Position numbers and translations under genes: made by a program. Under the pieces are notes generated by a model. That model saw only the letters and a list, made by a program, of their open reading frames with translations, was not told where the DNA came from and searched no databases. Positions 4,033 through 56,965 of a DNA stretch of 64,000 nucleotides are shown piece after piece; positions within the stretch are counted from its first letter, which is position 1; every line of letters begins with the position of its first letter. This stretch comes from Bolinopsis microptera (taxonomy: Eukaryota > Ctenophora > Tentaculata > Lobata > Bolinopsidae). The stretch lies in NCBI RefSeq assembly GCF_026151205.1, contig NC_087074.1:8101726-8165725 (forward strand), written 5' to 3'.

Positions 4033-4287
4033 AACATAATATGATCATAACGCGTTGCCATGACATAACGATATAGGTCGGCATGGTTGGCTATATAAGT
4101 ATCGCACCCTATAATCAAACTTGTTTTAAATTCCAAACGTTATAAATTATGCCTATTTCCTCAACCCAATATTAGTTGTCAAATCTCGTCGAGACACTTC
4201 GCACTGGTCCTACCTTGACTGCAGACACGTGAATGTCAAAATGAGTAAACTACGAAGGTTTCGTTTTCATGAGCATCATAATTTTCG

Positions 4288-19800: not shown

Positions 19801-22800
19801 ACATCGTCTTGATTTATTGTCCAGACATCAGATAACATAAATACTATTTAGCTTCAATGTCAAAATAAGTTTATCAGATAAACTATTACGACAATCTCAT
19901 CGTGGGTTACGCTGTTATACTTATTTTGAGCGACAATGATAATTTTGAAAGGTTATCAGAGGATAAGTCACCTGTTATAATCTGTTTCCCAGAAGTATGC
20001 TCCTGAAACCACCCAATAAACTGAACCATCATATCACTTATCTTATCCCGGTTATCCTCATGGGTCAAATGATGGTGGATGATAGCCCTCATCTCAGCTA
20101 GTGTGTCACCCGCACTGCACCAAATCTCGGTAAACCTGTTTCTCAGAGCGGGAGAGAGCTGGAAATATTAATAATATTACAATTATATTGTGATTTCAGA
20201 GCAAAAGAAGAGGATAAAACCACTATAGTTCGATAGATGATCGAAGAGAATAAACGAATCAGAAATGACTTTAGAGACAGGAACTGACCTCCTTTTTACC
20301 GTAGTCCCCTCCAGGGTTCATGGTGGCAATAATCCTGAAGTTTGAGTGAGCAGTGAGGGTGAGAGACTCACTACTCTCCGCCAGGGTCAGTTGTCTCTCC
20401 ACCTCCAGGACACTGTTTAGTCGCTCAAGCACTGAGTCGTCCGCTAGAGAGATCTCATCCAGTAGGATCATATCCCCCTTTTTCATTGCCTCGATCAGTG
20501 GTCCATCAACCCATTCGAAGAGCTTATCTCCCTTAATAAAAAAAAAGAATTACGACAATCGATTTCCAATTCTGGATACCAATAACAGACAACTATAATT
20601 ATTACCATATCCGATCTATTCAAAATCAAGCATCAGCAATGTTTAATGTTTCTCACCAAACGATCGCGCACTGGTCTAAGACTCCCAATAAAGTCCGCTG
20701 TGTCAGAATGCATGTGACAGTTGAGTATGTGAAGTTTCAAATTCTTCAGGGCTGCCATCACTTGACAGATTGTGGTTTTACCGCACCTGAGTTGGTTTCA
20801 ATTAATTAGAGCTTTTGACATTAAAACATAATATTAAATATTCACCCTGTGTAGTGTGCGTGGAACAATCAGATAGGTTTTCCCCTGCAAAGCTTCATGA
20901 TGTTCAAACTGTTCATCCGACGTAATGACGTATACTCTTAGCATTTAGTTCTAAATATATTGTAGCCCGTAGTTGAAATGCAGCACTACTAAATACTTCC
21001 CAGACCTATCATTGACGACATCTTGATGGCAAATTTTATTTGTGAACTGGTACAAACGGTTTAATGTGCTGATGAAATGCGAAAGTAGCGCCCATGTCTG
21101 TTGAGTCAGTTTATAAACTACAAATAACTACAAATAAGGGCTAATAAATTGTAAAGTATAGTAATAATTACCCTGTTTCTCCAATGAGAAGTACCGGCTC
21201 CTGAAACTCCAGACTACGATTAACCAGGGTCAGCAGTCGTAACATACTGGGTGTCCACACTATACCAATGCTCTCCTGATAATTAAAATACTGGTTTTAA
21301 TACGTGCAAAACTTCCATACTGAGACTTAAACTGGAATTTTTATAAGTAAAATATATAATCTAGTCTAGATAAGCTCCAATACCGCGAAAACAAGATAAT
21401 TATACGACCAAAGGAACGCAAGTCTACTGTCTACCAGCATTTATTACTCACGGTCATAGACAAGAAATCTAAAGAGACCAGTGACCCATCAAAGAAACTG
21501 TTCGTATCTATTTTTCGCTTAAAGACTTTTACAAGGACATCCTTTATGATTTCTTCTTCATCGCACCGCCTGACTTTTCCCGTCAGTAACATGTATCCTG
21601 AGAACAAATTTTACGATCATTATAACGGTATTTTTCTAGTTAATATCGTTGCTAGATGAGACAATCGTAAACTATTAACGGATATTTTTACATTGTATAC
21701 GATTTTTATACAAGCCCACGCTGACAGAATTGACTAAACTATTAGCGTATCTGTTGCCAAACTGACTACTGAATAGTATTTATTCTCAGCTCAAGCTGGT
21801 GTGCAGCATACCATCGTTAGCTAGCAATTGGTCCCAGTCAGTGAAGTTGTCGTTTTCAGCACTCAGCCTGTATCTGTCTGCCCATCTAAAAAGGTCTCGC
21901 AATGTTATCAGACCGTGTCTTCCAGCAAATATTCCCGATTTTGTCCGGCTGCTCTGAGGGAGAAAAATATGGGAATTTGTAACGGATCAATGCAGTTGGG
22001 AGGGGGATATTAAAGTTGGTCACGAGCGTCTCGTTCCTGATGTTGTTTGTTTAGTTGCTAAGGTGACATTCGCGTTAGGTATTTTACGTGGTTTCCGGGT
22101 TTAATCACCGTCTTAAATGCGCGGAGTTAAAATTAGGACGAAAAATCGCTAATTAGAACTTGCTTAAGACTGAGAGATAAAAATGGGATGGATAATGTCT
22201 GGAACGCTGTGGATCAGGAAATCGAGCGGTTGCCCAAAAAAGAAATGCGGCCGAATTTATCGTTGAATGTGGGGCTTGAGTGTGGCGTAACGTTAGTGAA
22301 ATTGGAGCAAGACCTGCGGGAAAGTACGGAGAATGATTTTCGAGTGTGGTTGCACTTCCTCTAAAATGTTAGGAAATTGCGGTGGTGGACAGTAACTATT
22401 GTACGAAATACTATACGCTCCCTTCTTTTTATAGATATTAGTCATCTTAATGATAAAATTACTTGACTAGACATGACTGATAACTGGAGTAAAGAACTTA
22501 CTGATTTGCAGTATAAATTTAAATGACATTAATTAATTAATTTCGCTGATTTCTTCAACCAGTTCCAAACATTACATTGTAATGTTTAGAACTGGTTGAA
22601 GAAATCAGTTATTAGAATATATATTCGCATATATCCACACTATATTTACATTACACGTTCAACGTGATATCATTATCAGTGCAGTGTGTACAACACCAAC
22701 TACACCGATCAATTGCCAATCTGCGAAACATTTAATTATTATTATCACTTCGAGATGGCAGGGCCTACTCTCATGCTGTCTATAGGTGATGATTAATTCT

Positions 22801-25800
22801 GAAAAACTAGGGACAACTGGGGAATGATCCCAGAACCTCGACATTTCGCGTGTCTTGCTCTACCAATTGAGCTACTGACCCTGATTCTCAGAGCGAAATC
22901 ACCACTCATATACAGCACAATTTCATGCTTTGTGCGGAATATCATTTATCAGTTATTAGAATATATATTCGCATATATCCACACTATATTTACATTACAC
23001 GTTCAACGTGATATCATTATCAGTGCAGCGTGTACAACACCAACTACACCGATCAATTGCCAATCTGCGAAACATTAAATTATTATTATTACTTCGAGAT
23101 GGCAGGGCCTACTCTCATGCTGTCTATAGGTGATGAGTTGTCCCTAGTTTTTCAGAATTAATCATCACCTATAGACAGCATGAGAGTAGGCCCTGCCATC
23201 TCGAAGTGGTTAAAGAAATCAGCGAAATTAATTCTGCAAGCGCAAGCGAGTAGAGATGTTCTTGCAGAAGTCGAAGTACAAAATTATCGTGAATATTTTA
23301 ACTCAATTTCGATTAAGCAGTTTTCTATTTATTTCTGATTATTATATAATATATTAATGCCCAATTAATGCAGTGAAACCTTTTATTTATTATTAGATAA
23401 TCTGTATCTAAGTCAAGGATTTATTAGCTGAAAATGAGAAATGTAAACAATTTAACAACAATTTTCTTTGCAATCCATTTCCAAATGTTTTGTCTTTCCA
23501 ATTAGGCGCCTAGAAAATATTCGACCACTCTTCAGTAAAAACTTAAAAAGTTCATCTTGAAAAAACCAAGTTTCCGATGTCAGATATTATTGACAGCATC
23601 ACCGTCAAGACATTAACAGAAGGTCTGTACGATGCATTGCTTTCTTGATTTGAGAATGCTGCGCGTTCTCACAGCCCACAGCCGCATTTTTACCGAATTT
23701 TCCGCGCATTTCTTGGCAAATTTAACAGCCCTAAAGATTAAAACTTGAAGTAGTAAATTGGCAAATTATTCGCGTATTTTTTGAAAACTCTAAATGCACC
23801 GTATTTTTTTACGAAAGCCTTATTTATGTTAATGTTTATCAAAACTTCCGTGGGTGGTATTATTTAGATTGCGATTTGTTTGGACTTTGGGGCTGTGATT
23901 TTTAGACCCTAGCTAAACGGTGCTACCTATTTTAGTCAATCGAGTGCAGTCTCCGTCCTAAATAAAGTGCATTAGTGCGGCAATTTTAAATTGGTAGTTT
24001 GAATAGAGATTTCCAGTAAGGTTGCTCAATAAATTTCAAAATATCCATGAAAATCAGTTCAATTATATCGGACGACTTTTAATCTCTTTTAATTGTAATT
24101 ATCCATGATTTCAACCGCCAGTTAGTTTGTGCAGACAATTAAAAATTAATATAAATATGACACTTACAAGGTGATATTTGAGAGACTTTTGTACAAAGAA
24201 GCTATGAAAAGTAGTAATTTCAACAGTGTCAAATGCTAAAATATATTAGGATAAGACGAGTAGAAGTTAACATTCAGTTGGCATCCGTCCAAGGCAAAAA
24301 TCGCAAAAACATTTTCGCCATTAATAATGATCAAATCATCGATTCCAACATGACGTTGATACAACACCCAACGCACGACGCCCCGAAATTGTACGATGTT
24401 CCAGACTGCAATGTCCCTTTGTAATCATGTCTGATTGTTTTTTGAAGATGGAGTCGTGTAGAAATGTCCATTGCATTGATATTTAATATTTAAAAATCGG
24501 GATTATCTCAGATTATTGCAATGGCAGTTGAATGTTACAAATTGCCACAAAATTCATTTTCAATAAAATATTAGTTCCTAATAAAACTGAAATGAAAAAA
24601 ATAAGACGAGAATTATATTTATTGACAACACATAGTTGGCATCACTGTGTCACCACAAGGCCCAAATGTTTATAATCATTAAGCCTGCTGACTCGACTAA
24701 CATGCGACCCAACGACGTCTGGAACTGTAAAACGCGTCCTTTCAACTACTAAAGAGTTAAACGTTACACACGACCTGTTAACATTTGAAATCCCAGCCCC
24801 CTTCGAAATATTAACCATCCTCCTCGCTGGTCGTGGAGATCGAGGGAGAGGAATGTTCTTAAAGGTATCAGTCACGTGAGACCTCATTCCAGAAATACGC
24901 AGAAAATATACGACAGGGTTTATGGCAGCGTTCAGGATTACACAAAGGGGATTGAGAAATATCCCGAGGTACATATCAAAGAGGCTGAAGGTGTACGGCA
25001 TGATGAGATTGTAGGTTAGATAAACCCAGTAAGGGATATTCAGAATGATATAAATCCCGGTTATGATGAGGATTGTGACTGTGGCTCGATGTTTCAGCCT
25101 ACTTTTCACGACCGAAGACAGCTGACTCAGTCGAGGAGCAACACTGAGCCGTTTTTTCTTGACAGGCGCGGCGCCAGAACTACAACAGAGTTTGTTTAAA
25201 ATGCGATTAGAGACAGTGATTTTAGGAGAAATTTCCATCCCGGGAATGTCTGGAACTGGATAAGTTCTGATGAACGTGATTGAAACCCCACAGCTGATGA
25301 GAACAGGCACTGCGGGAAGTAAGAACGGCAAAATAAGAGTCAAGATGTACAGAACATTATACATTTTACTTTCTGGTTTGCAAATATCGTCCAAATACCA
25401 CAGGCACAGCGTCCAGTGCGAGTTGAACTCGTATTTCTTCCACCAAAGATAGGGTAAACTGGCCTGGAATACTTGTATCGCTGCCATTACACTGACAATT
25501 ATCAAAACATATCTTGAACCAGTTTTCTTAAATGGGTAAACGAGGGAATAACTACGAAGAATGCTTTGAAGTGCCACAATAAAGACAGATAACCGGGATG
25601 AGATGTTGTATAGAAATCCAAATATGTTGCACAGAATCCCAGCTGCAAGATACTTAACCCCAAATGCTGGATATATCCTGGCCACTCCAAAATGAAACAA
25701 GGAAACGCAGGTTACCACATCTATTCCGATCATCCAAAGGTAGAGCATGTTGGACACTTTCTTTCGTTCTCGAGCAAAGTATCGTATACTGAGTAAATTC

Positions 25801-28800
25801 CCTACGGTTCCAGTAAGAGATCCAAGTAGGCTGACTCCTCCGTACACATTATCTAGCCAGGGAATGAGGTAGACGAGGGTGTCTGTCGTGTTGTGTGCTG
25901 ATATTGTAGTTGTGCTGTTCATTCTGTTTGGAGGGAATATTAAACGTAATGCATTACCACGATTACATTTACACAGAATTACAGGACAACAACAAATCTG
26001 AATAGCAGTTTAACCTCGAAACCAACCTGTGATAAATATTCAAAACTTTAGCCGGAAATCAGAGTTTTACAAAACACAAAAAAAAACAAACGAAAGCTAT
26101 GTGCAAAACACACGCTGGCCTGTACGTGTGGATAACATAGTAACGCAGCTCAGGTGCTCCGTGTCAACAATCACAACCAAAGGCGAGTCAACAGAGCGAT
26201 AAACGGGGGGAATGATTAGATGAGGGTGCGAACGTGGGTATTCCCGCTGTGACGGTGGAGCAACAATTTTCATTCAATTTCATTAATCAGGATCCCTCAC
26301 TTGCCATTACTTAGTAAACGGTCCACAGTTGTGAAGTGAATTAGAACTGTGATGCCATGTGCCACTGACGAAGGTGAAGTTAATTCGGAAATAAACAAGC
26401 ATGAAACATCGCCGTGCACTTTTGCCGTACGCGGTAGTAGTCTGGTAACTATGGTAACTGGAATGAAAGTATAAGAAGCACTCTAAGTTCAAGCAGTTAG
26501 CAGAATACATGCTTCCGTTTCTATGGGAATGATGGGCCATGATCATGATCAACAATTACACTTTGATTATGATTGATTAGTTTCTGCCGTATTAAGTACG
26601 ATCTAAAATGGTGGCTGCCGGACAACTTCACACAGTGTATAATTGAGAGACAAAACGGAGTCAATATATTAATAATGTAACTTTTAACAGGTAAAATTGT
26701 AGTATATAACCACAGTGCTGGCTAGCACGGTCGACCGGGGTGGCCGGTCGAGTCACTGGTAATGGTATTTTTAAGAGGAAAATATGTCGTAAATTGTACT
26801 GCAAACAAAAATTCAACTCTGGGATCTGTCTTCAAATTCTTTAAGTATTTGTACATGATTTTTAAATGAATCTAATTATGGTGATTTTTTACGAGTGACA
26901 GAATACGTCGTGCTGCCGAGTTTTCTAAAAGACGATACTATCGATGCGTGTAGTCCGTGGGAAACTCGATATCGTGAAATATCGTGAATTGAAGTCAAAA
27001 CATCAATTATCATTTAATAATATTTCGGCAATTTTTCATAAAATTGAATGGTGTTGTTTCAAGAAGCTATGTTGAGAGTTAAATTCCAAAATGTAGTTCG
27101 ACCTTTAAATTGTACCTATTATCTTAGGACAAAGGCAAAAGAATTCGCAACGAAATGTTCATAAGCAGTACCGTAACAAATTACTAATGGTATTAGTAAT
27201 GGTCATCTGTATTCTGTATGCATGTTAACTTTCAGATTATAGCTTTATACTGCATCACTCATCATATTACAGTGAAATTGGCAACAGTATTATAAACAAA
27301 TAATTTTTCAAGCTATAGTCTCAAGTCTCAACATGCCGAATGGTAGAAATTAACTGCGTGCTAGTAACTTAATAATTGATCATTGTGCTTTGTAAACCAT
27401 ACGAAGAGGAGACGAGGAAAAAGCTGATGACGAGGCAAATTATTGCAACAAATTATAATTATGGGATTTTAATATTAGTATAACATTTTAATATTAGTAT
27501 AACATTATATTAATAGTACAACATTATATTAGTATTGAGTCGATTAATGAATGACATCCGATGCGAGTTTGCGACCAATGCTATTGTACAGTGTACACAC
27601 ACAGTATATGGCCACAACATATCAAGAAACTCTATCTATACATTTTTATCCACCGCCCACTCCCTGTGCAATCATAAACATGAAGTTCAAATTAATTTGT
27701 AAATCTTATTATTGATAAACTTACAACAATTAGTAAAGGAGTTTGTCAGACTTAGCACTAGCAGCAAACAATAACTGCACTCCCAATCTGTGGTGCAGAC
27801 TCGAATTGTGCGTGGAGATTGGATATTCAGCCGTTCAATGTCTTGGGTAAGCCAGAATAGGGGAGTTTAATACAATCTACTAGAAATGCAGCGCCTTATT
27901 AATCTAAAACTAACTCGGCACGGCGAGAGCGATGATATAATTGGACGCAACATCAACCTCTCTCTGATCAATGACCGGCGTTTTGGAAGCTTTATCACAC
28001 CTATGAAAAAACAAAACAGACGCGTGGTTACTTCGAGATTAATATGAAGACGTTGACTCATGAGATGCACACACACGCCGAATCAAGTGATTAGTGAACC
28101 CAGAAAATTCGCAAATATTTAAACTCTGCCAAACTGTGCACTGCTCAGTATGCCAGTATTACGCGTCCGGCTGCTTCACGGTGGTTTAGCGTAAGGAAAG
28201 CGAAGGAAGGCACAGTAAGGAATTGAGGAAACTAAAAATAGAGCTGTTATGAAGTAATTTCCGCTTTTTGAGTATTGTAAAACTATTAATAACCTGTACA
28301 TGATAATGATATTAATTTTAAAGATATTAATTATAAAGATATGGTAATGACTATGATTAAGTTTTTGGAAATAACGATCGTTTTTCAAGAATCGTAATTT
28401 GGAACTATTGATTACAAACTTCGGCAGCAAAACAACGGATCGTGGAGTGGCTTGCGTAGACGAATAATGCAAAAAACTGCAAATTTTCTGTTGGATAACG
28501 CCCGACTGCGGCTCAGTGTTCATAAAAAAATTAGACTAACGCATGCGTTGTTTCACAGTGGTTTCATGATTATAAATCTTGGCTTCGAGACGGCTGATTA
28601 ATGAGTAATACCGATAATAGGATTTTGTATATTTTATATATTTTGTATATTATGTACGCCGTCACGCACAATTTAATCAATATGCTGATTTCCATGCCAG
28701 GTACATGTTTACCTTGTAATTAGACAATTTTAGCTGCTGGTAAACTCTCAATTTTAAAATGAGCACACCATATATAATACCTGGAGCTTTTCCATCACCG

Positions 28801-31800
28801 AGATAATCTTTTTACTGTAAGAAGGAGGAAGTTGGCATCGTTCTTCTATGATTGTCTTTATCTCAGACAAGGGCAAATCTTCATAATGTAACTCAATGAA
28901 CCGATTCCTAAAGGCTCGTGAGAGAGTTTTTCTGCCTCCATAGCTACCTGGAATGTAATGTTCAACGTTTAAACAATGAAATCACAAAAAAGAATAACCG
29001 GGTCCGTAAGAGGGAATTATCACCCGTATCGCCATCCACGTTTTGTAAGTTTCCAGGATGAAGCGCAAAGCAATCCACCAAGGAGCGAATGGCGGTCCAT
29101 TTTTTTATATAATGGAAAGGAATACTTTCAGCGAAATTGCGAATACCAGTTATCCCAAATCATAGTTGCTTCGTGCGCACTAAACGCACTTTTAAAACCG
29201 AACGCACTTTACGCACGAAAACTTTTTACAAACGCACTTTTAAATCTGTTTCTAACAAATCAGTGCGTGGGCACGGAAAAAGTGGAGAAACTTGTACATA
29301 TCCACGGTAATCTGCGCAATATCAGTGCATCTGAAAAGACTGGTGCAGCTGCACGTGGTAGTTCTCTTTTACACTACCTTAGTAAGATGTAGGAATGAAG
29401 AATTTTGACATTTTTTAATTCGTAAACCTCGTAATGTAAAGGCAGACACACTTTACCGCACTTAAACGCACGAAAAAATCTTCACGAACCAAACGCACTT
29501 TTTCTGGAAAAGTAACGCACGAACCAACTATGTCCCAAATTGAATATGTCTAGCCGCCTCTCACTCACCAGCTGGGTTCTGTGTCGCAAACAACATGAAA
29601 TGAGGGTGAGCTTTTACAGTTATCTGAGTCTCTGCGATGAAAAGCTCTCTATTGTCATCGAGGACTCTGTTCAACGCTTCAAGAACGTCAGTTGGTGCCA
29701 GGTTCAACTCGTCCAGGATCAACCAGTGTCCGGCTCTCATTGCTTCCACCAGAAGACCTGTCATGAGGAAAGAAATGTCAGGAAAATCTGTCCATAAAAG
29801 TAACTATTGCTCAAAAATAGCTTATTTATAATTTGGAAAAAGTAATATGTAGATCTTCCCAAACCTTCTTTAAAGACGAGTTTGTCGTTCTCCCCGACAC
29901 AGTAACTACCCACGTACTCCTGTAGGTCCGTGTGTTCGTGGTTATTAATCCGGATAACTGTTGTCCCAGCTATACCGGCCAGGTACTTTACCACAGACGT
30001 CTTTCCTGTGATTTAGAGGTTATGATATTACTACCTTTACAAGTTCTACAACTAGTGAGACCGCAAGATCAAAGATAATTAATTGAGAGGATATCGAAAC
30101 CTGCAGTATATAACATAAAGGTAACTCTGTAACACTACTGAGTGTACTGACCTGCGCTGGTAGGACCCTGCAGTAATACAGGGTACTCAGCCGAGCTCAC
30201 AGCACGTGCTAGGTCGTGCAGGTTCTCCTTTACAGTTTGAGTAAGGATGTAACCTGGCGTGGTGACCGGTTCCAGGTCCCCCCTCTCAATCCAGTACCCT
30301 TCTACTAACACATGACTGAGGGGAGGCTTGGTTAGTGGTTTCGAATTTGTATTAATCCTGGAGTCATGGGCCAAGTTCATGAATATTGGAAAAAGAACGT
30401 AAGAACTCGAAGTGAAGATATAAATAATCGATATACCAAGTACAAGTATGTAATTTAGTTTCGTTTAACTAATTATAATAACAGTGGCTATTTTTATCCA
30501 TTATTCATAGAAATATATCAACGCATTATTATATTAAGCACAACAAGTTATATAGTTATATAACTAACTTAGTTCCAGGTTGTGGAAGTTTGTGTCGGAT
30601 AATCTCGGATGCAGTGTTCTCTGGTAACAAGTGCTGGGTGATGAGTTTTCTTACTCTGGGGTAGCTGGATCTGTCGAGCTGAGTGAGGAAGCTGAGGGAG
30701 AACCCTTCGTAGAGTGATCGTAATGTATTACCACACGGGTTACGACCTGAAAACACAGTAAATATCAGCATCAACTTTAATTAGAATTTGTAGTTTTTCT
30801 CACAGTCGTACAAATGATAGGGAAAAACAGATCTGAATTTTATTTTTTTATACCGACGACTGTTTTGGAGTTATCGGATTGATTTACTGTGAGTTGCATA
30901 TAAGCGGGCGATTGTTATTTCTTAGACTTAAGCTCCAAAAGAAAGGAGATAATCATGATTGATCCTTGAGCAAATTTCCCACTCGGAAGTCTAAAGCATA
31001 CTTTCTATGAAATGAATTTCTACGACTGCTCGCTGGGATTGGGTCCACATTGATAATTATTATCTGTGTGTATTTTTCATATACTTCTTTGTCATACTGA
31101 TACGTTATAAAACGTAGCTCTGAAAATAAACCCATTTTGTACAATATTTTCTATGATTTGATGTGGGATATTGCCATAAGTCATTTGCAAAATTTGCCAT
31201 GCAATAAGTTTATAATGACATTTTCCTTGTGAGACAACTCCTCACCGGGATTTTAATCAATCAACCGGCCAAACATTATAAATTACTCTTAAAAATGATC
31301 GAGTTTGTATTAACATTAACATGTCCGGGCACAGCTGGCTTACAACAGCACGCCATTCTTTCACCTTAATTTCAGCACAAAATACAAATAAAGACATTGC
31401 GCTGGGAGAATGGTCAGTATCAACGTATATTGATCAACATAATATTCATACAAATCATTATAGGACCTATTATAGGACTTATAGATGTTTTGCCACAATG
31501 ATCATACAGTTACCATTATTAATAGCATTAACTCATTGACCTATTCGGCATTCCAAAATTACGACGAGTGAAAGAAGGAGAAACAGGAAATGGTGCAAAC
31601 CAGATATATCAGAGTTAGAAAAGGTAATCTGAAATTTGAGGGAATGGCAGCTGGAATGTATGCTGAACCAGCTTTATGTCCGCGGCAGCGTGATGAGAAT
31701 AGAGAATCCGACCTAAACAGAAGATGTACGGGAAACTCAAAACTCTGTAATATTAGTTTCGATAGTGGGCATTTCGTCCAGATAAAGTTCACCAATCAGC

Positions 31801-34800
31801 AAATAATTGACATCAATTTTAATATCAGGAGAACATATTAACCAGTAGAAATTCTGATCTTTTTCATCCTGACAACATTGATCTTTCGCTTTTGCATTCA
31901 TTGAAATACATAAGTTCGCATTATTTACTTATTATTTACATTGTCTACATATTGTCTACATATTGTCAACATATTATTTACATAATATTTTTGTTCTCAT
32001 ATTTTATGCTTGTTATTTCGTTTGTTACGTTTATCAATGAACGCAACGTATGCCTATAAACAACGCTTACTACAAGATTGAAGACAGTAACTGTAAGGCG
32101 GCAGCAGGCCCGGTCAAAATACAAATAAACGGGTACCTATTTTTTGTTCCAACTGCTTACCACTGAATTTACCCCTCTCTACAAAGCTATATCACGAGAT
32201 TAGTAGATAGTAGATACTCGATATCAGAGAAATAGCGTAATAAACTTTTGGGCTTCTCCCACCTTGCACAGACTCTCTACATATATGTTATATCTTCACA
32301 AGCTCATACGTTCATTTCATTACTCTGGGTTCATTTTGTTACTTTACACATGTTTAGCTTCTATCCAGATCCTTTATGTACATTGTCACTGTGTCGAGGT
32401 AGAACGATAAGTTACTGCAGAGGTAGAAGTTGGTCATTTTACAATTTAGACACTGTCCGAGAAGCTTTGACACAGCTCTGTGGAATTCATTAATTAGGGA
32501 TAGGGTGGAATTCCACCGTAACATGCTTTCGTTGGAATTCCATTTCCACACAGCTGGTCAATTGACGGTTTGATCATGGTCGGGAATAGGATATAAGGTA
32601 AATTATCAGCCAGTAAATTCTGTACTTTACTAATTAGATAAGAATACGTTACGCATAATAGCTCATTGTATTTAAGAATAATCACATTCACTGAGCATTC
32701 ATCACCGCGCTACGTTAATTTCCATTCAGTTAACAAGTTATTAGCTGCTGCTACGTGTTGAAATCTTAATCTGAAATATTGCAATTCCTTACGAATCATT
32801 TGATCAGGTGTGTTATTTGTTGGTGGCAAGAGATTTCTTGGTGGCAAGAGATTTCTTTGGTGGCAAGAGATTTCTATAATCTCAGGAAATAGTGATCGTG
32901 TAACTTATAACCTCTCCTATTTCAATGACCATAGTACACCCTTTACGAGGTGCCACTATTAAGTACAGTAATCTGTTCTGGGTGATTCCAGTTTAAACAG
33001 ATGAGGTGCAACAAAAAACTATGGATCTAGACCAGTAAAGGTCGACAAAAAACTACCAGGTTCGAGGGGCCAGCTACCCTTCAACCTTAAAATAGCTACT
33101 GAAACATCAATGAATAACCAAAAGTGGAGTGACTCTCGGAGTTCAAGGAGGGGTGTAGCCAGGATGAAGTGCTCTGGGCAAAGCCGCAAGGACCCCAGTG
33201 TGCAGATGAGAACAAAGAAGTCGCCTTATTTCAACAGTGTTATTAGTTCACAGCATATCACTCATGTGGACCCGGAGAAGGGGAGAGCACTCCCGTGCAA
33301 CTTTATCAAACACAGCATTAATGTGGGAACGTGGAATGTGTTATCATTGGAGAGCAGTTCCTCAAAGCTGTATGAATTGTCACAGAATATGTCAGCATAT
33401 AAAATGGATGTCTTGGGGCTGACAGAGACGCACAGACCCGGCACTGGTGAGGTTACCTTGGATGATGGGTCCCTCTTTATTAACTCAGGAAGAAGTGATG
33501 GGTACAGACGACAAGGGGTAGGTTTAGTCCTCTCGAAGAAGACTAAAAATTCATTGATTTCATACAGTCCGATATCAGAACGTATTCTTGCAGCGAGGCT
33601 GCACAGTCGACATATCAACATTTCGATTGTGATAGCTTATGCTCCAACTGAGGATGCAGCAGTCGGGGTAAAGGATGACTTTTATCAGCAGCTATCTGGG
33701 GCATTTGATGAACTACCAGCTCATGACGTGAAGTTTTTACTTGGAGATCTAAATGCTCGCATTGGCCAAGATAACTCAGCTTGGTCCGGTGTGATTGGTA
33801 AGCATTCCCTTCACGTTTCATCAAATGACAACGGCCTTCGACTATTAGATTTCTGTGCATTACATCAGTTGACAATCGGTGGGACGCTTTTCCAGCATCG
33901 TGATATTCATAAAGGAAGTTGGAAGTCTCCAGATGGCCGCACAGTAAATCAGATTGACCATGTCTGTATTTCTACCAAGTGGAGTCACTCTCTACTTGAC
34001 GTAAGATCATGCAGGGGTGCAGACATTGGCTCCGATCATTATTTGGTTCGGGGTCAATTTAGAGTCAAACTTATGGCAGTTCAAAAAATGAACGCCTCTC
34101 GTAGGATATCTCCAGCAATTGAGAATCTTAGAGATCAGTCCAAGGTTGAAGAGTACTGCATTGCTCTTCAAAATCGTTTTAGCTGCCTACCAATGGAGGA
34201 GAATCTTGATGGAGAATGGACATTAGTTAAGGATACTATTAAAGAAGTGTCTATGGAGGTACTGGGTGAGCGCCCCCGGCGCAGAAAGCAGCAGCATTTG
34301 TCTCAGGAGACAAAAACCCTTATTGCAGAACGCAGTAAGATTAAACAAATGGCGCCTAATGACAACAACAATAGGAGCGAGTATTCTCGGGCCAACAAAC
34401 TTGTCAAAAAGAGCTGCAGGAAAGACGACGAGAATTGGGCTCTTAGAGTTGCAGCAGATCTGGAAACAGCTGCTGTCCATGGCCGTCAAAGGGAAGTCTG
34501 GCAACGGATAAAAACACTGTCCGGTAAGAAGAATCGAAAATCAACTGCTGTAAGAGACAAATCCGGGAAGTTGATTGCTGATCCCTCTGCTCAGAGAGAG
34601 AGAGATGGGGAGAACATTTTTCGGAGCTATTAAACCCTCCTCCCACGAATGCGGATATGTCTGACCTGGACCATCTTGAAGTGGTTCCATGCTTTCCTTA
34701 TCTTGGTGATGGTGATGGTCCCCCCACAAGACTTGAGATTTTAAACTGTCTCAAAAAATTGAAGAATCACAAAAGTGCTGGGATTGACGAAATCTCTAAT

Positions 34801-37800
34801 GAGCAGTTAAAGTATGGGGCAAGTGGTCTTGTGGATAGGATGGAGAAATTGTTCTCTAAAGTTTGGAATTCAGAAGCAGTGCCTGACGACTGGTTGAAAG
34901 GCATCGTGATAATTGTACCAAAGAAGGGTGATACCTCTCATTGCTCCAATAATAGGGGGATCACTCTAAGATCTACAGCATCTAAACTGTATCAAATCAT
35001 CATATTACAACGCATGAGTGACGGTTTAGAAAGTCTGCTACGAGACAATCAGTGTGGGTTTAGAAAGAACAGATCATGCATTGATCAGATTTATTCACTC
35101 CGCACTATTATACATAACTGCATTGAATATAATCTCCCCCTGTATGTAAATTTTGTGGACTTCAAGGCAGCTTTTGATTCCATCGACAGGAATTATATTT
35201 GGAAAGCTTTCAGTCATTATGGCCTGCCATGTAAATACATTCGAATAATACAGGCATTCTTTAATGGAACTGTTAGTGCTGTTAGACACAATGGTGAACT
35301 ATCAGAATGGTTTGAAGTAAGTTCAGGCAGTGGCCAAGGAGACATTCAGGGTCCCCCACTTTTTAATGTCTGCCTCAATGTGGCTGCTGAGAGAACAGAA
35401 AGCAACAAAGTGGTGTCCCACGGAGCGGTTCTTCAAAGATCTATCAGTCCGCTCGTTGATGATATCACTGTGTTAGATACAGATTATGCAGATGACATGG
35501 CTGTACTGGATAACAGCGAGGAAGGTCTTCAAGAAACAACTGACCTTTTGTGTATGTATGGTGCCCAGGGAGGTCTTAGAATCAATGGTAAAAAGACTGA
35601 GGCTATGGTCATTGGTAAAGCAACCTCTCAACGGCCATACACGAAAGAAGCCACAGTGAACATCACTGTTGAAGACACGCCAGTGCAGCAAGTTAGTGAC
35701 TTTACGTACTTAGGTACAATTATTTCCAGCGACGGTACTATCGACCGTGAGCTGTCAGCTAGGATTCAGAAAGCTTCCGGAGCCTTCAATCAACTGAGTA
35801 ATATATGGAAAAACCGCAACATCCAGTCTTATACAAAGATCAGGATTTATAAGGCAGCGGTTTTGACAATATTGTTATATGGTAGTGAGGTTTGGAACAC
35901 AACCAAAAAGCAGCTACATCGCTTTGAGGTGTTCCATCAGCGTTGCTTGAGGAGAATACTTAGGATAAGATGGCTCGATCGGGTTAGAAACACTGAAGTG
36001 CTGGAGCGTGCAAAGATAAATCCAGTAGAGACGTACATAGGAGCAAACCGCCTGCGTTGGTTTGGCCATGTCACCAGAATGCCAGACACTAGGCTTCCTA
36101 AGTACCTGCTTAACTGGACCCCTGCCCATGGGAGAAGATCTAGGGGCCGTCCAAGAAAGAACTGGAGGAAATGTTTGCTGGAAGATGCTGCATCGTTTAC
36201 AGGAAACACTGACATAGACCTAGAAGGAGCGAGCGAGATGGCTAGTGACCGAAAACTTTGGAGGGAGATGATACGTCACAAACGGGAGTTCATTGGTGCA
36301 GGCCACTCGAATGATTGAGGAGACCTAATCAAGTACAAGTAAGTAAGTTATTTGTTGTTAATAAACCGTACAGATGCAAATTGCCTTGAAGTAACCGTCC
36401 ATCTAATCACCATTATATAAGCAGCTGATACCACAGAATTTTGATACCCATCAAAGATCTTTAGTCTAAGCCCTAGTTTGAGCATGGCCTAATAATGAAT
36501 AATAATTTGCTTCAGGGCAAGATTTTACACGGAGCTGTGATCACTATTCAAGCGCTGTTGATGAGCACAAGCCATGCATAAGGAACCAGGAGATCAAAGC
36601 TAGGGCACACGTAACCCACTATCGCATATACAAGTGGTCCTGCATACTGGTCCTATATTTATACTGGTCATGACCTTATAACACTGTTGGGTTAGGGGTC
36701 GTTCACATATTACGTAATTAGCTGAGGGGGGGGGGGGGGGGGTTTCCGAATGATTACGCTAGTGTAATTTTGACACAATAGCTATGTGTAAAACTGATTA
36801 CGATGGGGGGGGGGGGGGGGGGGGGGGGTAAACATGTTCCAAAAAAGGGTTACGTAATATTATGTGAACGACCAACTATCTCTCAGTATCTTAATGAACA
36901 CGTTTCCTTGGCAATTATAATTCGTTTCCAAGACAGTGCTCCGTACGGCATTTTATTACTTTCCTTTTTACTTCATTAGCTCTCCAGGCTCCAGCCATTC
37001 CTTCTCTCGGCGTCGAGTAACACGCCAGTATTTTGCAAGCTCGATAGATGTGTAATTTGTTGTCTTCATTACGATGCTGGCAATTTACTTTCGGTCTTTA
37101 AAGAGAAAAATGCCTCTTCGAATTGTTTCATCTCATCAGTTGTAACAGTTTTTCGGTATATTATGTTTTCTTGGTAGTGCAACCTGTTGTTTAATGCTGC
37201 TTTTGATTTGGCTCACTATTGTAAATAGGACGGATCGCAGACCGGTCGCCGCTATGTCGAAAAATAGCTTATTTGTGCTCGTTATCACTACCAGGAAATA
37301 AAAGGGGACTTCCGATCACAGTGCCGCCCGAAACTGGACTGGCTCAATTTGTTTAAACGAGTTCCATACTAATAAGGTAATCAGATGTTAAATGTGTTGT
37401 GTAACTAGGTTTTAAATGCTGGTGATGCGGTGCTCTCTCCAGAGCAAGTGGTCATTAACATTTCAACCAGATCAAAGTTATTTCTAGGCAAGTCAGTCTG
37501 TTCGGTAGTAAGTCGGACTCCGTTCACTTGCCGTCTATTCTTCAGAAGCTTGCGATGCATATGTTATATGTAATTAGTTTGCTGATGTCAACCCGATCTC
37601 AATATAACATCAAATTACCATTTTGTGACTGCACTTCAGGACCGTGTCGACACTAACCCTTCCATCTGATGACCTCATTTGAGGCTTCTTAATGCTGCCT
37701 TTCAAAATAAGAATGATCTGCCTTAAAAATAATTAGCTGCAGGATGTGATCGTCACTGGCCAATTGTAGTTATTAATCATCAAAATGCATGATCTCTTAC

Positions 37801-40800
37801 GTCAACCTAAATATTTTAGGCATAATTCTGATGACGGAACTTGTTTTGGAACAATTACAGCTCATTTTCAATCTGAATAGTTGCTCGGGTTCAATAAACG
37901 TTCTATAAATACAAGCTTTAGTCGCGGTTTATGGTTTGACACTTTTCATTCGATTTGTCGATTCTTCTATAACAATTTCAACTTCTCACCCTTACAATTT
38001 CGTCTTGTCAGCCCTATGGTTTATGGTTTGACACTTTTCATTCGATTTGATAATTCTTCTATAACAATTCCAACTTCTCACCCTTACAATTTCATCTAGT
38101 CAGCCCTACGGATGACGATAGAATCCAATGATAAGACAATCTATGGGATCAAGACTGATGCGGAAAGATACTTCTGGATCGGATATCTATCTACAGTTGT
38201 CATCTCATCGCTCGTCGGCGATGTCGTCATATTGGTGGCTTCCAAAAAAGCAGACGTTTTTAAGCTCAACGGCTTCCTGATTGGCCTGATACAACACATA
38301 GCTATCAGCGATTTGATCATGTCAGTTGGCTACATATCTCCAATTATTGTGTCATTGGTGTTGGAAAAGTGGGTTTTTGGGGACTATATTGCGTACACCC
38401 ACGAGTTCTTTGCTTATTCAGTGTTTCCAGTAACCAACATCCTGGTCTGCGCTCTGACAACAAGCAAGTACCTCATGATAAAATACCGGTTACAAGTACC
38501 ACGGTGGACTGAAAAGAAGGCTCACCTGGCCTGTGGTTTTCTTTGGATTTCGTGTGTTGTATTTTCATTTTCCCTGCTCATCATCAACAAGATGGACCTC
38601 ATATTTGACTACACCAGCTATGAAGTTGATTTTGTTCGGTCTAAAAACTATGTCTGGACATATGCTGGGTTGAGTGTGGGCTTGCTGTATTGTATTCCTA
38701 TAGTTGCAGTGGTTCTATCCTCCGTGCTAACTTTCAAATTTTTGGTAAAAGCAAGAAAGATATCCCGCCGTGGAGGAGGAACTCTGAGATGGCAGGGTAT
38801 GATGGCAGTCCTGCTAACTGGCATTGTGTACTGTGTTTCTTCGCTCCCATACACCGTCTACAAGATGAGGAGACCATTCGTTCCAGAGACTCCACCGGGT
38901 TACTTTCACATACAATTCAAAAGACATTCCGAGTACATGACACTCCTAAACGTGATGGCGAACTTTTACATTTACAGTCTTACTGTTCGTAGCTTCAGGA
39001 GGTTCATATGGTCTAAGATTACTATGGTAACATCGCATTGGCTTTCTTGTCGTAAAAATGATTTAAAAACGTCAACGGCTATACTAAATAGAAATGAAAC
39101 AGACAGTCACCCAAAACAGACTAATTTGGACGATATCACCACCGAGCGGTTACGAACATACCCGTTGGAAACGACGATATGACAGCCTCGAGTTTAGTTC
39201 TTCAATGAATCTAAGGGTGAATATTTCGAACCGAATTTTCCACCTTTTTTCAGCACAGTTTTTGAAATCTTGTCGGGATATCAATGAGCTTGAGACAGAA
39301 CAGATTACGGTTTAATTTTATTTAATTTTTAGAAATTATGGTAGGGGTTGTACGTAATTTGCAATGACCATGATTATTCAAAACTGTACGCCCAACCATT
39401 TAGGTCTATTTGGCTAGATGATTATAGTCGATTATGTATGCAGTCAGGCATATTCATGAACTAGTGTGAGACCTTTCAGCAGTTTGGTAATCCCAGTAAA
39501 TTAAAAAGATTATTAAAGCGTCATTAAACTGTCTTCATCTCCTCATATCCCTCACTCTCGAAGAGCGAGCCTCGCATCATCAGTTGGTCTTGGGGATAGA
39601 ACTGACGGCCAAAAGACAAAAAAAATCATCATATCAGAAATAGTAACATTTTTTTAGTTAATATTATCTCATAGTGAATATTATTAATAATGACATGAGT
39701 GTTTACTTTGTGATGTAGTAGGTTTTAACGTCGAATTAATTGGTTTGTTTTTAGATGTACTATCATATTCTTGATCTTAGTTCATATTAAGTTTAGTATT
39801 TAGTTTTCGGAGTATTGTGATTTTTGGAGTATTGTGATAACCGCTTTGACATAATCAATTTTTATTTTTACTTAGATTGCTGATACAGTACATAAGCGGG
39901 AAAAAAATATTATTTTTTTGAATTTAAAATTAAAATCTGTATTATCACTTAAAATTGATATCCCAATGTGCTACTTTCAGTGATTTCGGGAACCAATTTC
40001 GACTTACAAAATCACAAACTTACCGATGTATTTACATACAAAATCACAAACTTACCGATGTATTTGAGGGCCCTACAAAGTGTTCTGATGCTGTAACAGG
40101 GCCTATGTCCTCGACCATCAGTCAAAACATCCGCTGCTTGTTTTCTTAGGTCGGTGTACAGAGATACCTGAGCGACAAGCTACATTTAAAGGAGGATTTA
40201 ACTCAATGAGCTATTTAATTATTTATTTAATCATTTTTGAGAAGAATAGTATGCTATAATTGAGATATTTATCTCATTTAAGTAAAGACCAGTTGCAGTT
40301 TTAGGGTGAAATTTAAAATGTTGATGTAAATAAATTAGTTTCCAAGAAAAATTCAAAAATGAAAATCTACAATAATTAAAAACAATAATATGACGTACAA
40401 TTTTAGTGATCATAACGGACGGCAAGTTGAGGTGGTGAAGATAAGCAGCTGTCAAAGTTCGTAAATCTCCAGCCTCCGTCAGCTCGTCTACAAATATCTC
40501 TGTAAACCTGTCGAAATAAAATCAAATATTGACATACCAGGTGCAGTTAACCATTAATAATTAAACTGATAAATTTAACCAGACTGAAAAATATAATTTA
40601 AATCTCCGATCACATAAAGTGATAACGTGGAAGGCAAAAGAAAATAATTAAATGCATTCTGAATGTATGAAGGAAACCTATTCTTTATTCCCACGGGTAA
40701 ATCTTTTTTCCCAATGTCAGTAGACGGATTCATAGCGGCGAACAAACGGAAGTTCGGGTGCTTTTTAACAACATCCATGTTCCTGAAAATGAAATCCTTC

Positions 40801-43800
40801 GCTGAATGAACTGGCTTATAAAATACATGGTACCTTTAATAACAGCAAAAATAAACATGTCAGTATCATGAGGTCTAGTGTCTGATTTCAGAAACAACAC
40901 TAGGCTACTGAGAAAAACTCTGGCAACTTTCTACCCACCCTGATTCTACGACAAGAAATCCGGATCCGTCTAGAATACAGTTCAAACTCTCCAAAACTTC
41001 AAGAGGGGCCAGGTTTATCTCATCTAGTAGAACCCAGTCTCCGTTCCTTACCGCTTGAACTAGTGAACCCTAGATACGACATTTGTTATGTTTGTTATTA
41101 CACAAAATAGAGCTGGGAACCAGCGGAGGAAAGACTCAGGGGGACTGTATTCACATCGAACATGTCTCACGACAGGAAGTTATTAGGAAAAGACATCACC
41201 TACCAAATCAAAAAAAAATGTATGATTAAAAGTGGCAACTTAAAGTTTTCCTGTCACCTCTTAATGACACCAACAAATCAAAATTATAAACGAAATTTAC
41301 CTCAATAAACGCAAAAGCAAAGGAGTTTTCAATCTGGTTTATCTGCTTGCTTATCTTATTCGCCTCGGCACCAAGTTTGCACCACTGCTTTGACGCTGGC
41401 ATCTTCTTGCTAATGTGAAGAATCGCTTGCAGAAGGGTGCCCCATTCCTTTTGTCTCCAACAAATCTAAAGGATGTATTATTACATAAGATCTCAAAGCC
41501 TCGACGACAGAACTGTAATTAAGAGCCAGATGTCAGATGTGATGCAAGACAGACACGCGTTTCTTCCTCCGGTAATTCATTAATCTTCTTTATCCAGTAA
41601 ATTACATCACACACACACACCTGAACTTTTTGAAGGAAGTTTGCGTTTTTAGTGACAGAGAAGGAATCTTTAAAAAGGAGCTCGAAGGTGGTGTATAGTG
41701 GTTTCATGAGCTGGACTACATCAAGTGGCTTAAATCTGAAATAAAATTGTTGATTAGAAACTGTTCTATCGTCATTGGTTTGTTTTTTTGCTAAAAACGC
41801 GACGTTCGATGACCTTGTGTAACTGCTAACTTTGAAACTCAGCCAATTATGGCGTCTGGCTGGTTTCTCATGCGGTCCACTAATAAAATAAATTATTAAA
41901 ACATATAGTATTATAACAACACATTAATCTAGACTCCTCACCCGCCAATAAGATCGGCTGCATCACTCTGTTGAGACATGTTTATCACGACCAGGTTGTT
42001 GCCCGTTCTTGCTGCTAGATGCTGGACTGACGCCGTTTTACCGTTACCTGCGAGGTTTAATGTTGTCAGTAAAATTAAAATTAAATTGTTAAACTATAGT
42101 ATGTAAATTTAGATGATAGAGAAAAGGGAGTAGGAATAGCCGCGTTTTTCCTTTGTCGGACTAAGCAATATATTGCAAGCAGCTGTGCTTAATAACCCCT
42201 TCTCGGCTTCTCCCTCGACCAGTAACCACTCTGGTCTTCTTCAGTTACCAGGTTCGATTGTTATGGGAAGCTGAGACAGGACGTTGAAGCATTACACATC
42301 AAACAAATTCGGAAAGCCCCTGCACTCTTCAGTCTTCATGATAGGGCGATGATAATAACGAATTGACCTGGCAGCTACGCGTACGGCAGCTACCACTTAA
42401 TTTCTTTGATTTGGTTATAAAAGCAGCTACAACCGAAATCCAGTCGAGCATCTGCTACCTAAGACTTACAATTGAATCTAGCTATAATCATCATAATGTA
42501 ATGATCAGAACATTTATCCTAACCTTTAAGATTTAACAAGCTATAAATATAATAATTATAATAATATTAGTCCCAACCCCGGCCCTAGCTAGACGCTACG
42601 TCAGGTTATCAGTCAGGTCTCCAATAATTGTCTCTCAATAATTGTTCTTCACACGTCCACTGTAACTGTCCAGTTGTCTTGTTATTTCGTTAAACTGATT
42701 CTGTCTATTTCAGCCATTGTTTTAATTGTTTAACTGTACACGTGACACGACCCCCAGACCGATATCAACTTAGAAAATCATTCAGTGCGATACTTTATAG
42801 TTGAAACACCTGTCTCTACTATATTTTATATAATACTATCGTACCATTAAGTTTTCTCGAGAATGTGCCAACCTTTTAGCCTTTTGTTAAACCGAATAGA
42901 ACTAACTCGTTTGACTTTGGATATTAACTAAAATCTCGGTAGCACATAACAGTATTGTAATTGGTTAAGTTTTCGTTTTGAAAGATTTTAATTGTTTCAA
43001 CCGATTTGTGTTCGAAGCTGAAAGGTCTGGTATACCTGGTATACCTGGTATACAATATACAGTGAAAATCTTAAGTCCTAACTACGGACCATCTTATCAC
43101 AGACCAATTTATTATAAGACCAATTTTAATTCCTGCACTTGGCCCTATCTAAAATTGAATTAGAATACCCGACCATCTGAACTTAGTCGAACATAACATC
43201 CGATATCTACGTATTTGCGGTAGTCGGAAGATTGTAGTTTGTTTGTAACTATTAACTGCAATTATTCGAGACATCAAAACATTGTATCTCGCTGGAAAGT
43301 TGAAACCCATTTTTACTGCTAAGTCATATCTGCCTTCATACCAGTATTTAATAATTAAGGATCCCTTCCGTTAAATGTTTCCACAGAATATCTCAACCGT
43401 GCAATCAGCAATTAAGATATTATTATCCAGTAACCACTTTATTGGTATTATGCGGCCGCTTATCTTTTGTGGATGAAAAATTACGCTTTTTATTGTCAAA
43501 GATTACAAATCTGAGCCAGGTTTGTCAGCTGCAAATAATTTGCTACAGAGACCTTTAATTAAGCGAGAGTTCACGAAATATACTACTTGTTACTGTATTA
43601 GTATATGTATATTTGTGATGGCAACAAAATCAAATATATTATATTTATGGCATGCCTATTCTGCTGTTAGGAGAGAAATCATTGGATCGATTTAATGATC
43701 GAATTTAAAAGGCAATTTGAGCAGGTGCTTGTTTACTCATACTGGGCCGCGCTCAGCCTGTCATTCCGCCAATCTTTATTCGTATAGTATACAGTGGGGT

Positions 43801-46800
43801 GACATATGTTTTCGTCACTTCTGAATGTGCGCATTTTAGCGCGCGAGTTTGCGTGCACGTCACGTGATATTGTTAGCAGTGAGTGTAATCACGAGTCTGG
43901 AGAATTTGTCTAGTACAAGGCCCAGACCCTTTAGCGTATCTGTAGTAAATTTTGTGGCGATGTAATATCTATGACACCACTAAAAATTGAGGAATAGGGA
44001 AGTGTTCACAATATCCAACTTAGCATGGTAAACTTATGATATCTCTGGCTGAAGATGAACAACTCTAACAGTATTTATTTTTTCATTTTTTTATTTTTTT
44101 ATTTTTTTTTTCAGTATTTATTTTAATCAGCTGAGAAACATTAATTGGTATTGTTACCTTATCAATATGTATACGTCATATATATATATATATGTCGTCT
44201 CGCTTTATATATAGTAAGATTACTTCGAAATTGAGACCGATATACGTACAGTACTTTCAGGTGAGAGGTCGCATAGAAAAATCTATTAGAAAATTATATA
44301 GCAATTATCTTACAGTATAATTATTACATAACACCCAATATAAGGTCTCAATATGGGAAATTTATAGAACTGGAACTGCTGTTGAGAAATATCATATTAA
44401 AAGTCTCGGTAGCTTTCGCAGCTGTAACCTATTACCAATGCTAAGATTGGACCAGATCGCATTAACTTGCTATAAAGTTCAAAGATAAAACTAGAGTTTC
44501 AATTTAAAGTCCACCTGTTACCGGTAAGATAGGTTTAATTGCTGGTCAGGGCTATTTTTAGTTAAAGTCAGCGAAATCGTAGGATTTCAAAGGAACGGAA
44601 TATTTCGTCACTTTGTAGACCCTTAAACATTTATCTTGTTTACCCTTTAGAATTAGAATGATCTAATATTTACAAATCGTAGCGTCAGCATAATGTGACA
44701 TGAGCCGACGATAAGACGATCAAAGAGCTACTTCACCAATTTCTGGAACTAAAATAGTCACAACAATAGGGAAAACTCCTGGACTGCCTGATGGAGTACG
44801 ATCACCTTGGAGATACAATCCTAGGTGACATCACCCTGGTTATCACCACAATAGGTCTACTCAGCAACCTCATCCTCTTCTCATACTTCCTCTGCAACCG
44901 AGCCTGGAGAAGACTCAGTGACACGCTCTACTTCCTCACCTGCCTGGTCGACATTGTCATCATCGTGTTCCATGTGCCGGTATCTCTGAGTCTCACTGCT
45001 AAGAGAGAGCCAGCAGTGTGGTTTCAGGGTGGGGTGGGATGTGGGGTCTGGGGTGTGGTTTGGAATACTGCCATGAGGCTCTCCATCTTTATCATCATGG
45101 CTCTCACGGTCAGTAGGATGATGATGTTACTCCACCCTTTTAGAAGGATAAGCAAGTTTTATATCCTGGTTTTTATTGGGGTATATTTTGCATGGGAGAT
45201 GGCACATTCTTTAATTCCTTTCTATTTTGGCCTGAAATACAGCTACCTGAAACAGATCGTCATGTGTATTTGGCCGGAGGATATCGTCTTTGGTTACCCC
45301 ACTAGCGGATTCTACGTCTGGTTTTTTTACAGGGCAATATTCGAGTTTGCGACCCCATACTTTGTCATCATAACCTGTTGTATCATCTCGATAGTATCTC
45401 TCCGTAAATCCAAACGGACTCACAAACATAACCCACCAGACTGCGTAAACACAAAAAACAACGCAACCACGACCATTATTCTGCTGGCATGCGCTTACAT
45501 TGTCTGCAACACACCAATCGTTATCTACAGCACGATCAGTTTCTTAGACTCATCTATCGACCCCAACAACTCGGTGTTTGCTTCCTGGGATGCCAGCAAC
45601 TACAACTACTGCTTCATAATCTCCTGCATCAACAGTGTGCTGCTCAATGCTGTAGTTAATCCCGTGCTCTTCTGTACCAGAGTAACAGCCATCAGAGCAT
45701 GGGTTAGAGGCTGCTTTGTGAAGAGGAGGAGGACGAAACAAGGACAGATAAGATGTGAATCTAGAGTTACAGCACCTACATTTCAACAAGCAAGTACCCA
45801 GCTATAGGTGGAAAGTTGGAAAATGTTGCACTCAGAAGAGCAACATTTTGACGTTAACCAGATTAACATAAATATTCAAATCTTTAAGAGACGGCCTGAT
45901 TAGTGATCTGCAATAAACCAGAATGTTCAGTTATTGCTTTATTGGGGGAGGACGCTAGATTCTCGTCCACTCCCTGATCAATTTATTTATTGCTTGTAGT
46001 GAATGCTTTCAGAGGAAAACATATTTTATAATCTTAAAGAGTCTTGACTTGAAAACGACGCCCTTGTCTACCCACCGATATAATATTTTGTTGTACAATT
46101 TATCGCGAATAGACTACAGAGATATTAATACCTTTCATGGAGCGGTTGGGCGAGGCCTCAATAGTAAAACAATTAAATTCATTCCTCAAGATGTGAGTTA
46201 CGCCCCTTATTTTATCTTTCATCTGAAGTCCATTAGAGAAATTGTAAGACTGTAATATCTCGAACTTACAATTATATTGATAAGGTGGACAATACCTTAA
46301 GAGATCACTGAAAACTATAACTTAGAGCGTCACGTTATCAAGATAATACATTGAATATGTAATTGTTCACCGAATAAGTTGAAACTAAACACTGTTACCA
46401 AGAAACTGAAGAACATGAATAATACATGATCTTATGATGTTTGGAGATCGTTCATGTTATTTACCTAATTAGGCAGTTAATCGTGTCAAAAAATCGAAAA
46501 AAACCAAGAATATGCCTCGTTATACGGTTCCGTGAAATATGTCTACGAATTCGCACACGACAAACTCAGACCAATGAGCGCAAGAGAAACTACTTAACAA
46601 TCATCAATCCGTGAGAAGTAAGAAGTGAGGGTAACTTACCAGTCTCGCCAGTGAGAAGCACAGGTTCACAGTGCAGGACAGCGCAGGCAAGCTTCTCCAG
46701 CAACACCACAGTGTGCCGAGTGTGGGCGAAGAGTGGGGTGGGGTGGGGTGTTCCCCCACATTGAAGAGTGCACCGCCCCACCGTGTAGTGGGTTCGGGAG

Positions 46801-56326: not shown

Positions 56327-56965
56327 CTACATCCATGATGGCTGTTTGTAACTGAGATATTCCGTAACATTCAGATGTTTTGTGGCTCCTCCAAAGTAAT
56401 CAATCACGTAGATATTCTTTATGTTCAATTTGTAGAACGTGAATCCATGTCCGATAGGCCAGTCCTTTGTATCAGGATGCCGTGCAAATATCCCATATTT
56501 AGCCCACGCCACCTCATCAACGTCAGTAACCTTCTCCATCAGGCCAGACAACATGGCTTTACCGCAAGTTGGACTGTCGTTGTCAATACCTTGCTCCTTG
56601 CAGTAGTGTGTGAACCCAGCGCTGTATGTGAATGTTACTCTTGGGTCCTTTAAGAAATCGTGTGTAAGAGTAGACATCGGAGAATCGTAGATGATAGGAA
56701 TCCCAGTGCTGAGGGTCTCATTGTACAGCCCATCCGCAACATCCTTGTTCTGAGCAAAGGGGTAACCATCCATAAAGGAGGAGTGAGTAGAGACAATGCT
56801 GACATTGGTGTACTTTACCATCCATCGAGCATTTCCCACCAGGTCCTTGTAATCTGGAGGTGCAGGTTCATGGAATGCAGTGGTACAGCTCAACAAGGCT
56901 AGTAACACCACGAGTTGTAGGTTTAGAGGTCGCATTTTCAGAGGTGATTTTAGTAATGAGATCAT
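56327..56965 (-). CDS. CREG1: CREG-family secreted/lysosomal glycoprotein
   Basis: Frame of 212 residues, intronless, close to the 220 of human CREG1. CREG proteins are secreted or lysosomal glycoproteins with a flavin-reductase-like split barrel that lacks the FMN-binding residues; they affect growth and differentiation. The sequence shows KDLVGNARWMVKY near the start, FTHYCKEQGIDNDSPTCGKA in the middle, and HPDTKDWPIGHGFTFYKL and IYVIDYFGGATKHLNVTEY at the end, matching the family in order. Residues from Met11 give a clear signal peptide (hydrophobic VVLLALLSC, then TTAF), so the true start may be 56935 rather than 56965. NxS/T sites are at NVS, NET and NVT. It sits between CACYBP and the repeat-protein pair, all on one strand. 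Confidence 0.88.
   Translation of the reverse strand: MISLLKSPLKMRPLNLQLVVLLALLSCTTAFHEPAPPDYKDLVGNARWMVKYTNVSIVSTHSSFMDGYPFAQNKDVADGLYNETLSTGIPIIYDSPMSTLTHDFLKDPRVTFTYSAGFTHYCKEQGIDNDSPTCGKAMLSGLMEKVTDVDEVAWAKYGIFARHPDTKDWPIGHGFTFYKLNIKNIYVIDYFGGATKHLNVTEYLSYKQPSWM

Follow-up and report, generated by a model that had tools for sequence, protein, structure and literature searches.

Are the class A receptor genes that lie among the exons of MDN1, the midasin gene, in the ctenophore Bolinopsis microptera independent genes nested in its introns, or is their position better explained in another way? The locus was analysed in a stretch of 64,000 nucleotides (assembly GCF_026151205.1, contig NC_087074.1, positions 8,101,726 to 8,165,725 of the forward strand), here called the window, for which a preliminary description had placed three uninterrupted frames of class A G-protein-coupled receptors (GPCRs) in MDN1 introns and a fourth receptor beyond the last exon seen. 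Our reading, to which we give a probability of roughly 0.88, is that four rhodopsin-family receptor genes (R44, R38, R24 and R5) are independent nested genes in MDN1, each expected to have its own promoter and polyadenylation (poly(A)) site. The features concerned are the following, in window positions:

10904-49030, minus strand: MDN1 (midasin), AAA1 to AAA6, with 37 modelled exons, from spliced alignment, midasin alignment and Pfam
42048-46639, minus strand: MDN1 intron holding R44, 4592 bp, phase 1, from spliced alignment and exon-join check
30747-40055, minus strand: MDN1 intron holding R38 and an element like a long interspersed nuclear element (LINE), 9309 bp, phase 1, from spliced alignment and exon-join check
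21954-28780, minus strand: MDN1 intron holding R24, 6827 bp, phase 0, from spliced alignment and exon-join check
44791-45807, plus strand: R44, uninterrupted class A receptor frame, 338 amino acids, antisense to MDN1, Pfam 7tm_1 48.4 bits
38112-39182, plus strand: R38, uninterrupted class A receptor frame, 356 amino acids, antisense to MDN1, 7tm_1 44.0 bits
24642-25922, minus strand: R24, uninterrupted class A receptor frame, 426 amino acids, same strand as MDN1, 7tm_1 33.4 bits
5226-8895, plus strand: R5, class A receptor with eight coding exons, 406 amino acids, antisense to MDN1, 7tm_1 75 bits

The midasin gene and its receptor-bearing introns

The exon map of MDN1 was obtained by spliced alignment with a human midasin sequence as guide. 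The AAA6 part was realigned with a repeat-bearing stretch masked, and both runs were merged by hand to 37 exons and 36 introns. The spliced alignments reached scores of 670 and 1572, as compared to 37-46 for controls with a reversed reference or the plus strand. The exon peptides read from the window matched, in order, solved midasin entries, which we take to be yeast proteins, with an E value of 1.5e-201, and the spliced model across R44, R38 and R24, its exon boundaries picked with the human guide, matched solved midasin collinearly with E 3e-281. Six AAA domains, numbered AAA1 to AAA6 as read off from their order, were covered by exon peptides ordered along solved midasin, AAA6 only via its Walker A peptide; cross-matches among the repeated AAA domains were also present in this alignment. 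Pfam AAA_5 was found on both midasin peptides scanned and MDN1_4th on one of them. Of the 37 exons, joining numbers 1 to 29 gave 1466 codons free of stops.

None of the three receptors R44, R38 and R24 overlaps a modelled MDN1 exon, and the MDN1 reading frame is kept over all three mapped receptor introns. One midasin alignment of 526 bits, covering at least query residues 123-670, takes in the R38 and R24 junctions, and another of 74.6 bits takes in the R44 junction and is ungapped there. The intron holding R44 interrupts the Walker A motif of AAA2, GETGNGKT, behind the first base of the codon for its second G; this motif is therefore assembled only by splicing past R44. That the exons flanking a receptor might belong to two different genes was ruled out by the midasin alignment together with the frame kept through the receptor introns. 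Thus, the placement of the three frames in MDN1 introns, their coordinates, their uninterrupted state, the strands (R24 with MDN1 on the minus strand, R38 and R44 opposite on the plus strand) and the joining of the MDN1 exons in phase past the receptors, as given in the preliminary description, were all borne out.

In length, the receptor introns rank first to third among the 36 mapped MDN1 introns, whose median is 222.5 bp. For three specified introns out of 36 to take these ranks has a probability of 1.4e-4, but 64% of all mapped intron bases lie in the three, and the length-weighted chance is therefore unremarkable, at about one in four. Long introns hold most intron bases, so that insertions should land there or lengthen them, and nothing more was read into this pattern. 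In the repeat comparison of the window (seed 16), no conspicuous repeat of at least 60 bases was seen to connect the receptor introns. The fourth longest mapped intron was:

12722-16147, minus strand: MDN1 intron, 3426 bp, carrying copies of repeats, in which no receptor was found

Several modelled MDN1 boundaries have weak splice scores, e.g. 40678, 17599 and 47728, and the low end of exon 10904-11074 stems from the first alignment chain alone, the realignment having ended at 10999, where its alignment stopped. Candidate exons at 15146-15256 and 13175-13281 were discarded because of the repeat-bearing stretch, with 12547-12721 taken from the masked realignment instead, and a candidate at 8715-8880 was discarded because it coincides with the last exon of R5. 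The N-terminal approximately 300 residues of MDN1 were not found, nor were most linker exons, corresponding to human residues ~2331 to 3710.

Further parts of MDN1 were found in fetched sequence to the left of the window, for which negative window-equivalent positions are used. Human midasin residues ~3710-4232 match at -20153 to -26422 on the MDN1 strand; the spliced chain of the flank (19 exons) had a whole-chain score of 438 vs 122 and 97 for controls, and tblastn also matched this block, with single pieces down to E 2.7e-7. From this chain only the block at -20153 to -26422 was used, a 5-base exon therein not being credible; the pieces at 1277-1395, -5809 to -6556 and -16849 were left aside as weak, and those at -48914 and -49410 were not counted, as they lie in low-complexity sequence. 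The C-terminal MIDAS domain was located at -70851 to -73555 on the same strand by tblastn with a human C-terminus as query (best piece E 3e-33). Judged by these homologous blocks, MDN1 spans at least 122 kb. Past its 3′ end an open frame of 1461 codons (L015 5298-9680, window-equivalent -94702 to -90320) resembles, by eye, a long terminal repeat (LTR) retrotransposon.

Identity and kinship of the receptors

All four receptors exceed the Pfam 7tm_1 cut-off of 30.5 bits (260 profile positions). The uninterrupted frames of 338-426 codons were compared with 100 single-base shuffles of 11001-51000, in which the longest stop-free stretch was 186 codons, and chance frames were thereby ruled out. The third-position G+C of the receptor frames is 0.46-0.57 vs 0.357 overall in sampled introns; this raised value and the open frames are as expected for kept coding genes. 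Hydropathy analysis gave several hydrophobic stretches each for R24, R38 and R44, with no stretch above threshold at transmembrane helix 7 (TM7) of R38. Class A GPCRs usually, but not universally, carry the arginine in the (D/E)R(Y/W) site that follows TM3. Judged by eye, a complete DRY is present in none of the four receptors, the arginine being kept as VRL in R5, SRM in R44 and LRS in R24, and R38 having SKY without arginine. Even the best matches among solved proteins are weak, and therefore no ligand can be named: R44 matches the neuromedin-B receptor (E 3e-6), R24 matches melanin-concentrating hormone receptor 2 (E 8.5e-7), and R38 matches the uracil nucleotide/cysteinyl leukotriene receptor (E 6e-5). 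An AATAAA motif follows R44 at 45912-45917, 104 bases past the stop, and another follows R24 at 24618-24623, 18 bases past the stop, in MDN1 sense and within the MDN1 intron.

The fourth receptor, R5, is built from the following exons, which join into one frame of 406 codons with a single stop at its end:

5226-5392, 6158-6324, 6475-6668, 7055-7204, 7330-7424, 7622-7799, 8471-8519 and 8675-8895, plus strand: coding exons of R5

Its description as a receptor held, but the last MDN1 exon seen earlier is not the end of the gene: later MDN1 exons lie to the left of the window, which puts R5 inside MDN1 as well. R5 is thus nested between exon blocks, the exact intron ends being unmapped and the linker exons between the blocks not reliably placed. 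Unlike R24, R38 and R44, it is not intronless.

In a comparison of three proteins, R24 and R44 proved to be related at 23-25% identity (E 3e-17 and 2e-20); R5 shows kinship with each of the two (E 7e-13 and 7e-7). Identity among R24, R44 and R5 is only 22-28%; they are distant relatives, and R38 is not a close relative of theirs. The genome, 264.65 Mb in 232 contigs, was covered by a six-frame 7tm_1 scan, which gave 1680 candidate stretches, 147 of which were scored; this list is partial, none of the four receptors of the window being among the 147. In 136 of the 147 scored stretches a single frame takes in 230 or more of the 260 profile positions, five of these stretches having internal stops. 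Uninterrupted receptor frames are thus common in the genome, the six-frame scan favouring such frames. Among eight receptor loci returned, two are matched by R38, namely L005 and L007 (the latter at 28% over 125 residues, E 8e-13). R5 has a weak match to L002 (E 1e-5), and for R24 and R44 there is no match at 1e-3. A tblastn search over the 100 kb left of the window yielded no additional relatives of the receptors. The 7tm_1 candidates average about one in 158 kb, as compared to which the four receptors within 122 kb are somewhat dense, the counts being rough and receptor genes tending to cluster.

Two of the receptor introns hold further elements. A tRNA-Ser (cga) was called by ARAGORN at 22808-22882 on the minus strand in the R24 intron, beside inverted repeats, and is perhaps a tRNA-derived repeat; Rfam gave no match at cut-off anywhere in the window, including this call. 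A tandem duplication of 92 bp, with 92% identity, occupies 37926-38109 on the plus strand and stops two bases short of the R38 ATG; the same intron contains:

33110-36318, plus strand: LINE-like element with two frames, endonuclease (Exo_endo_phos) and then reverse transcriptase (RVT_1)

Nested genes and the competing explanations

The arrangement is best regarded as a real but ordinary instance of nested genes, a known feature of animal genomes. As the in-frame exon joins suggest, MDN1 would be transcribed through the receptors on the minus strand and the receptors would be spliced out, while the anatomy of the locus points to a promoter and a poly(A) site for each receptor, probably used in few cell types. 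It was probably ordinary gene duplication, perhaps via retroposition for the uninterrupted copies, that brought the receptors into the MDN1 introns long ago, and they may be tolerated because splicing removes them. Several observations do not fit this picture well. R24 clears the 7tm_1 cut-off by only 3 bits, and a possible 3′ splice site lies one base ahead of its ATG, so that R24 may have an upstream noncoding exon and would then not be strictly intronless. For R38 no AATAAA was found in the ~870 bases searched downstream, only ATTAAA from about +320. Seven helices of at least 26 residues are present in the structure model of R44, but this model is poor, with a mean predicted local distance difference test (pLDDT) score of only 46.5. 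As to retroposition, there is no positive sign: no run of eight or more A follows R24 or R44 in the stretches searched, target-site duplications not having been searched for, and one run of eight A lies ~435 bases after R38.

The low 7tm_1 scores of R24 and R38 and the lack, by eye, of an NPxxY-like end of TM7 in R38 would also fit decaying copies without function. That some of the receptors are of this kind is nevertheless unlikely, given the length of the open frames relative to the shuffle maximum, the reading of R5 through eight exons and the raised third-position G+C. Misjoining of receptor-bearing segments into MDN1 introns during assembly could account for receptor introns that are far longer than most other MDN1 introns. 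An assembly gap was ruled out, as the window contains no N, and the contig measures 21.3 Mb; moreover, such an artefact would need several independent errors, each exactly within an intron, and would have to leave the MDN1 frame intact over the three mapped receptor introns, which makes it barely credible.

The position in MDN1 might instead matter, the receptors being a co-regulated set that tunes MDN1 or is driven by its open chromatin. In favour of this are four receptors within one gene of at least 122 kb, the relationship of R24, R44 and R5, the interference reported for human nested genes, which are described as causing intron retention, exonization and cryptic polyadenylation (PMC3192792), and the co-regulation proposed for GPR52 and its host (PMC4372774). 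Against it, the related receptors share only 22-28% identity and do not include R38 among their close kin, the genome is rich in receptor genes, and most nested genes are functionally unrelated to their hosts according to PMC4394429; taken together, the proposal is improbable. As the sense gene, R24 would be the receptor most able to affect MDN1, through premature cleavage at its poly(A) signal: if its AATAAA on the MDN1 strand were used in the MDN1 pre-mRNA, the MDN1 transcript would be shortened. Read from sequence, this motif within the MDN1 intron is suggestive only as a hint of interference, and shared open chromatin or interference with MDN1 transcription, both raised in the preliminary description, are possible. 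The stronger version, in which MDN1 hosts a conserved co-regulated receptor set and receptor transcription, above all that of R24 via its poly(A) signal, lowers MDN1 and ribosome production, is very improbable.

Neighbouring features and known nested genes

Outside the receptor introns, the following features were observed in the window:

54961-55920, minus strand: CS-domain protein in one frame (21.9 bits, cut-off 21.3; SGS below cut-off), with GGMPGM-type repeats at its C-terminus and a 27-bp tandem array at 55061-55257
56327-56965, minus strand: CREG-like beta-barrel protein in one frame, E 6e-39
57628-59673 and 61643-63634, minus strand: two long frames in tandem, with 72-90% identity in the reported repeat blocks and no Pfam family above cut-off
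52285-53642: about 220 copies of the 6-bp unit TGACCC, with 75% matches
52001-54000: G+C of 58%
2670-4028: inverted repeat of 675 bp, 98% complementary, with a 9-base spacer
13271-13570 and 13975-14274: identical 300-bp copies with a frame like a piece of a Penelope-type reverse transcriptase by eye, for which a Pfam search gave no family

The locus is of interest mainly for annotation: its four receptor genes could be overlooked by gene finders or merged with midasin, and MDN1 itself extends over at least 122 kb, much of it in few long introns. With a housekeeping host, three antisense receptors and one sense receptor, it also offers a test case for interference between host and nested genes, and conservation of the arrangement among relatives, if found, would suggest selection for placement. 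No report of genes nested in midasin was found in the open-licence literature.

In flies about 10% of genes are nested, in humans about 1% (PMC4394429), another estimate for fly nested protein-coding genes being about 6% (PMC3786989). Two-thirds of nested genes lie opposite to the host strand, and the hosts depicted contain as many as 3, 4 and 13 of them, counting also RNA genes and pseudogenes (PMC4394429). The MDN1 receptors resemble this general pattern as apparently independent genes in introns, three of the four being antisense, and differ from it in that four receptor genes share one housekeeping host. GPR52 in an intron of RABGAP1L is likewise a class A receptor gene within a larger gene; there, one receptor is concerned and a functional link was tested (PMC4372774), whereas the four receptors in MDN1 are known from sequence alone. 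A further parallel is the human MED12L locus, where P2RY12, P2RY13, P2RY14 and GPR171 lie in an intron of a MED12L isoform, at a locus termed very complex and unusual (PMC7754106). In both cases several class A receptor genes occupy one large host; the host there is a Mediator gene, whereas here it is midasin, and its receptors lie in separate introns and are only distantly related.

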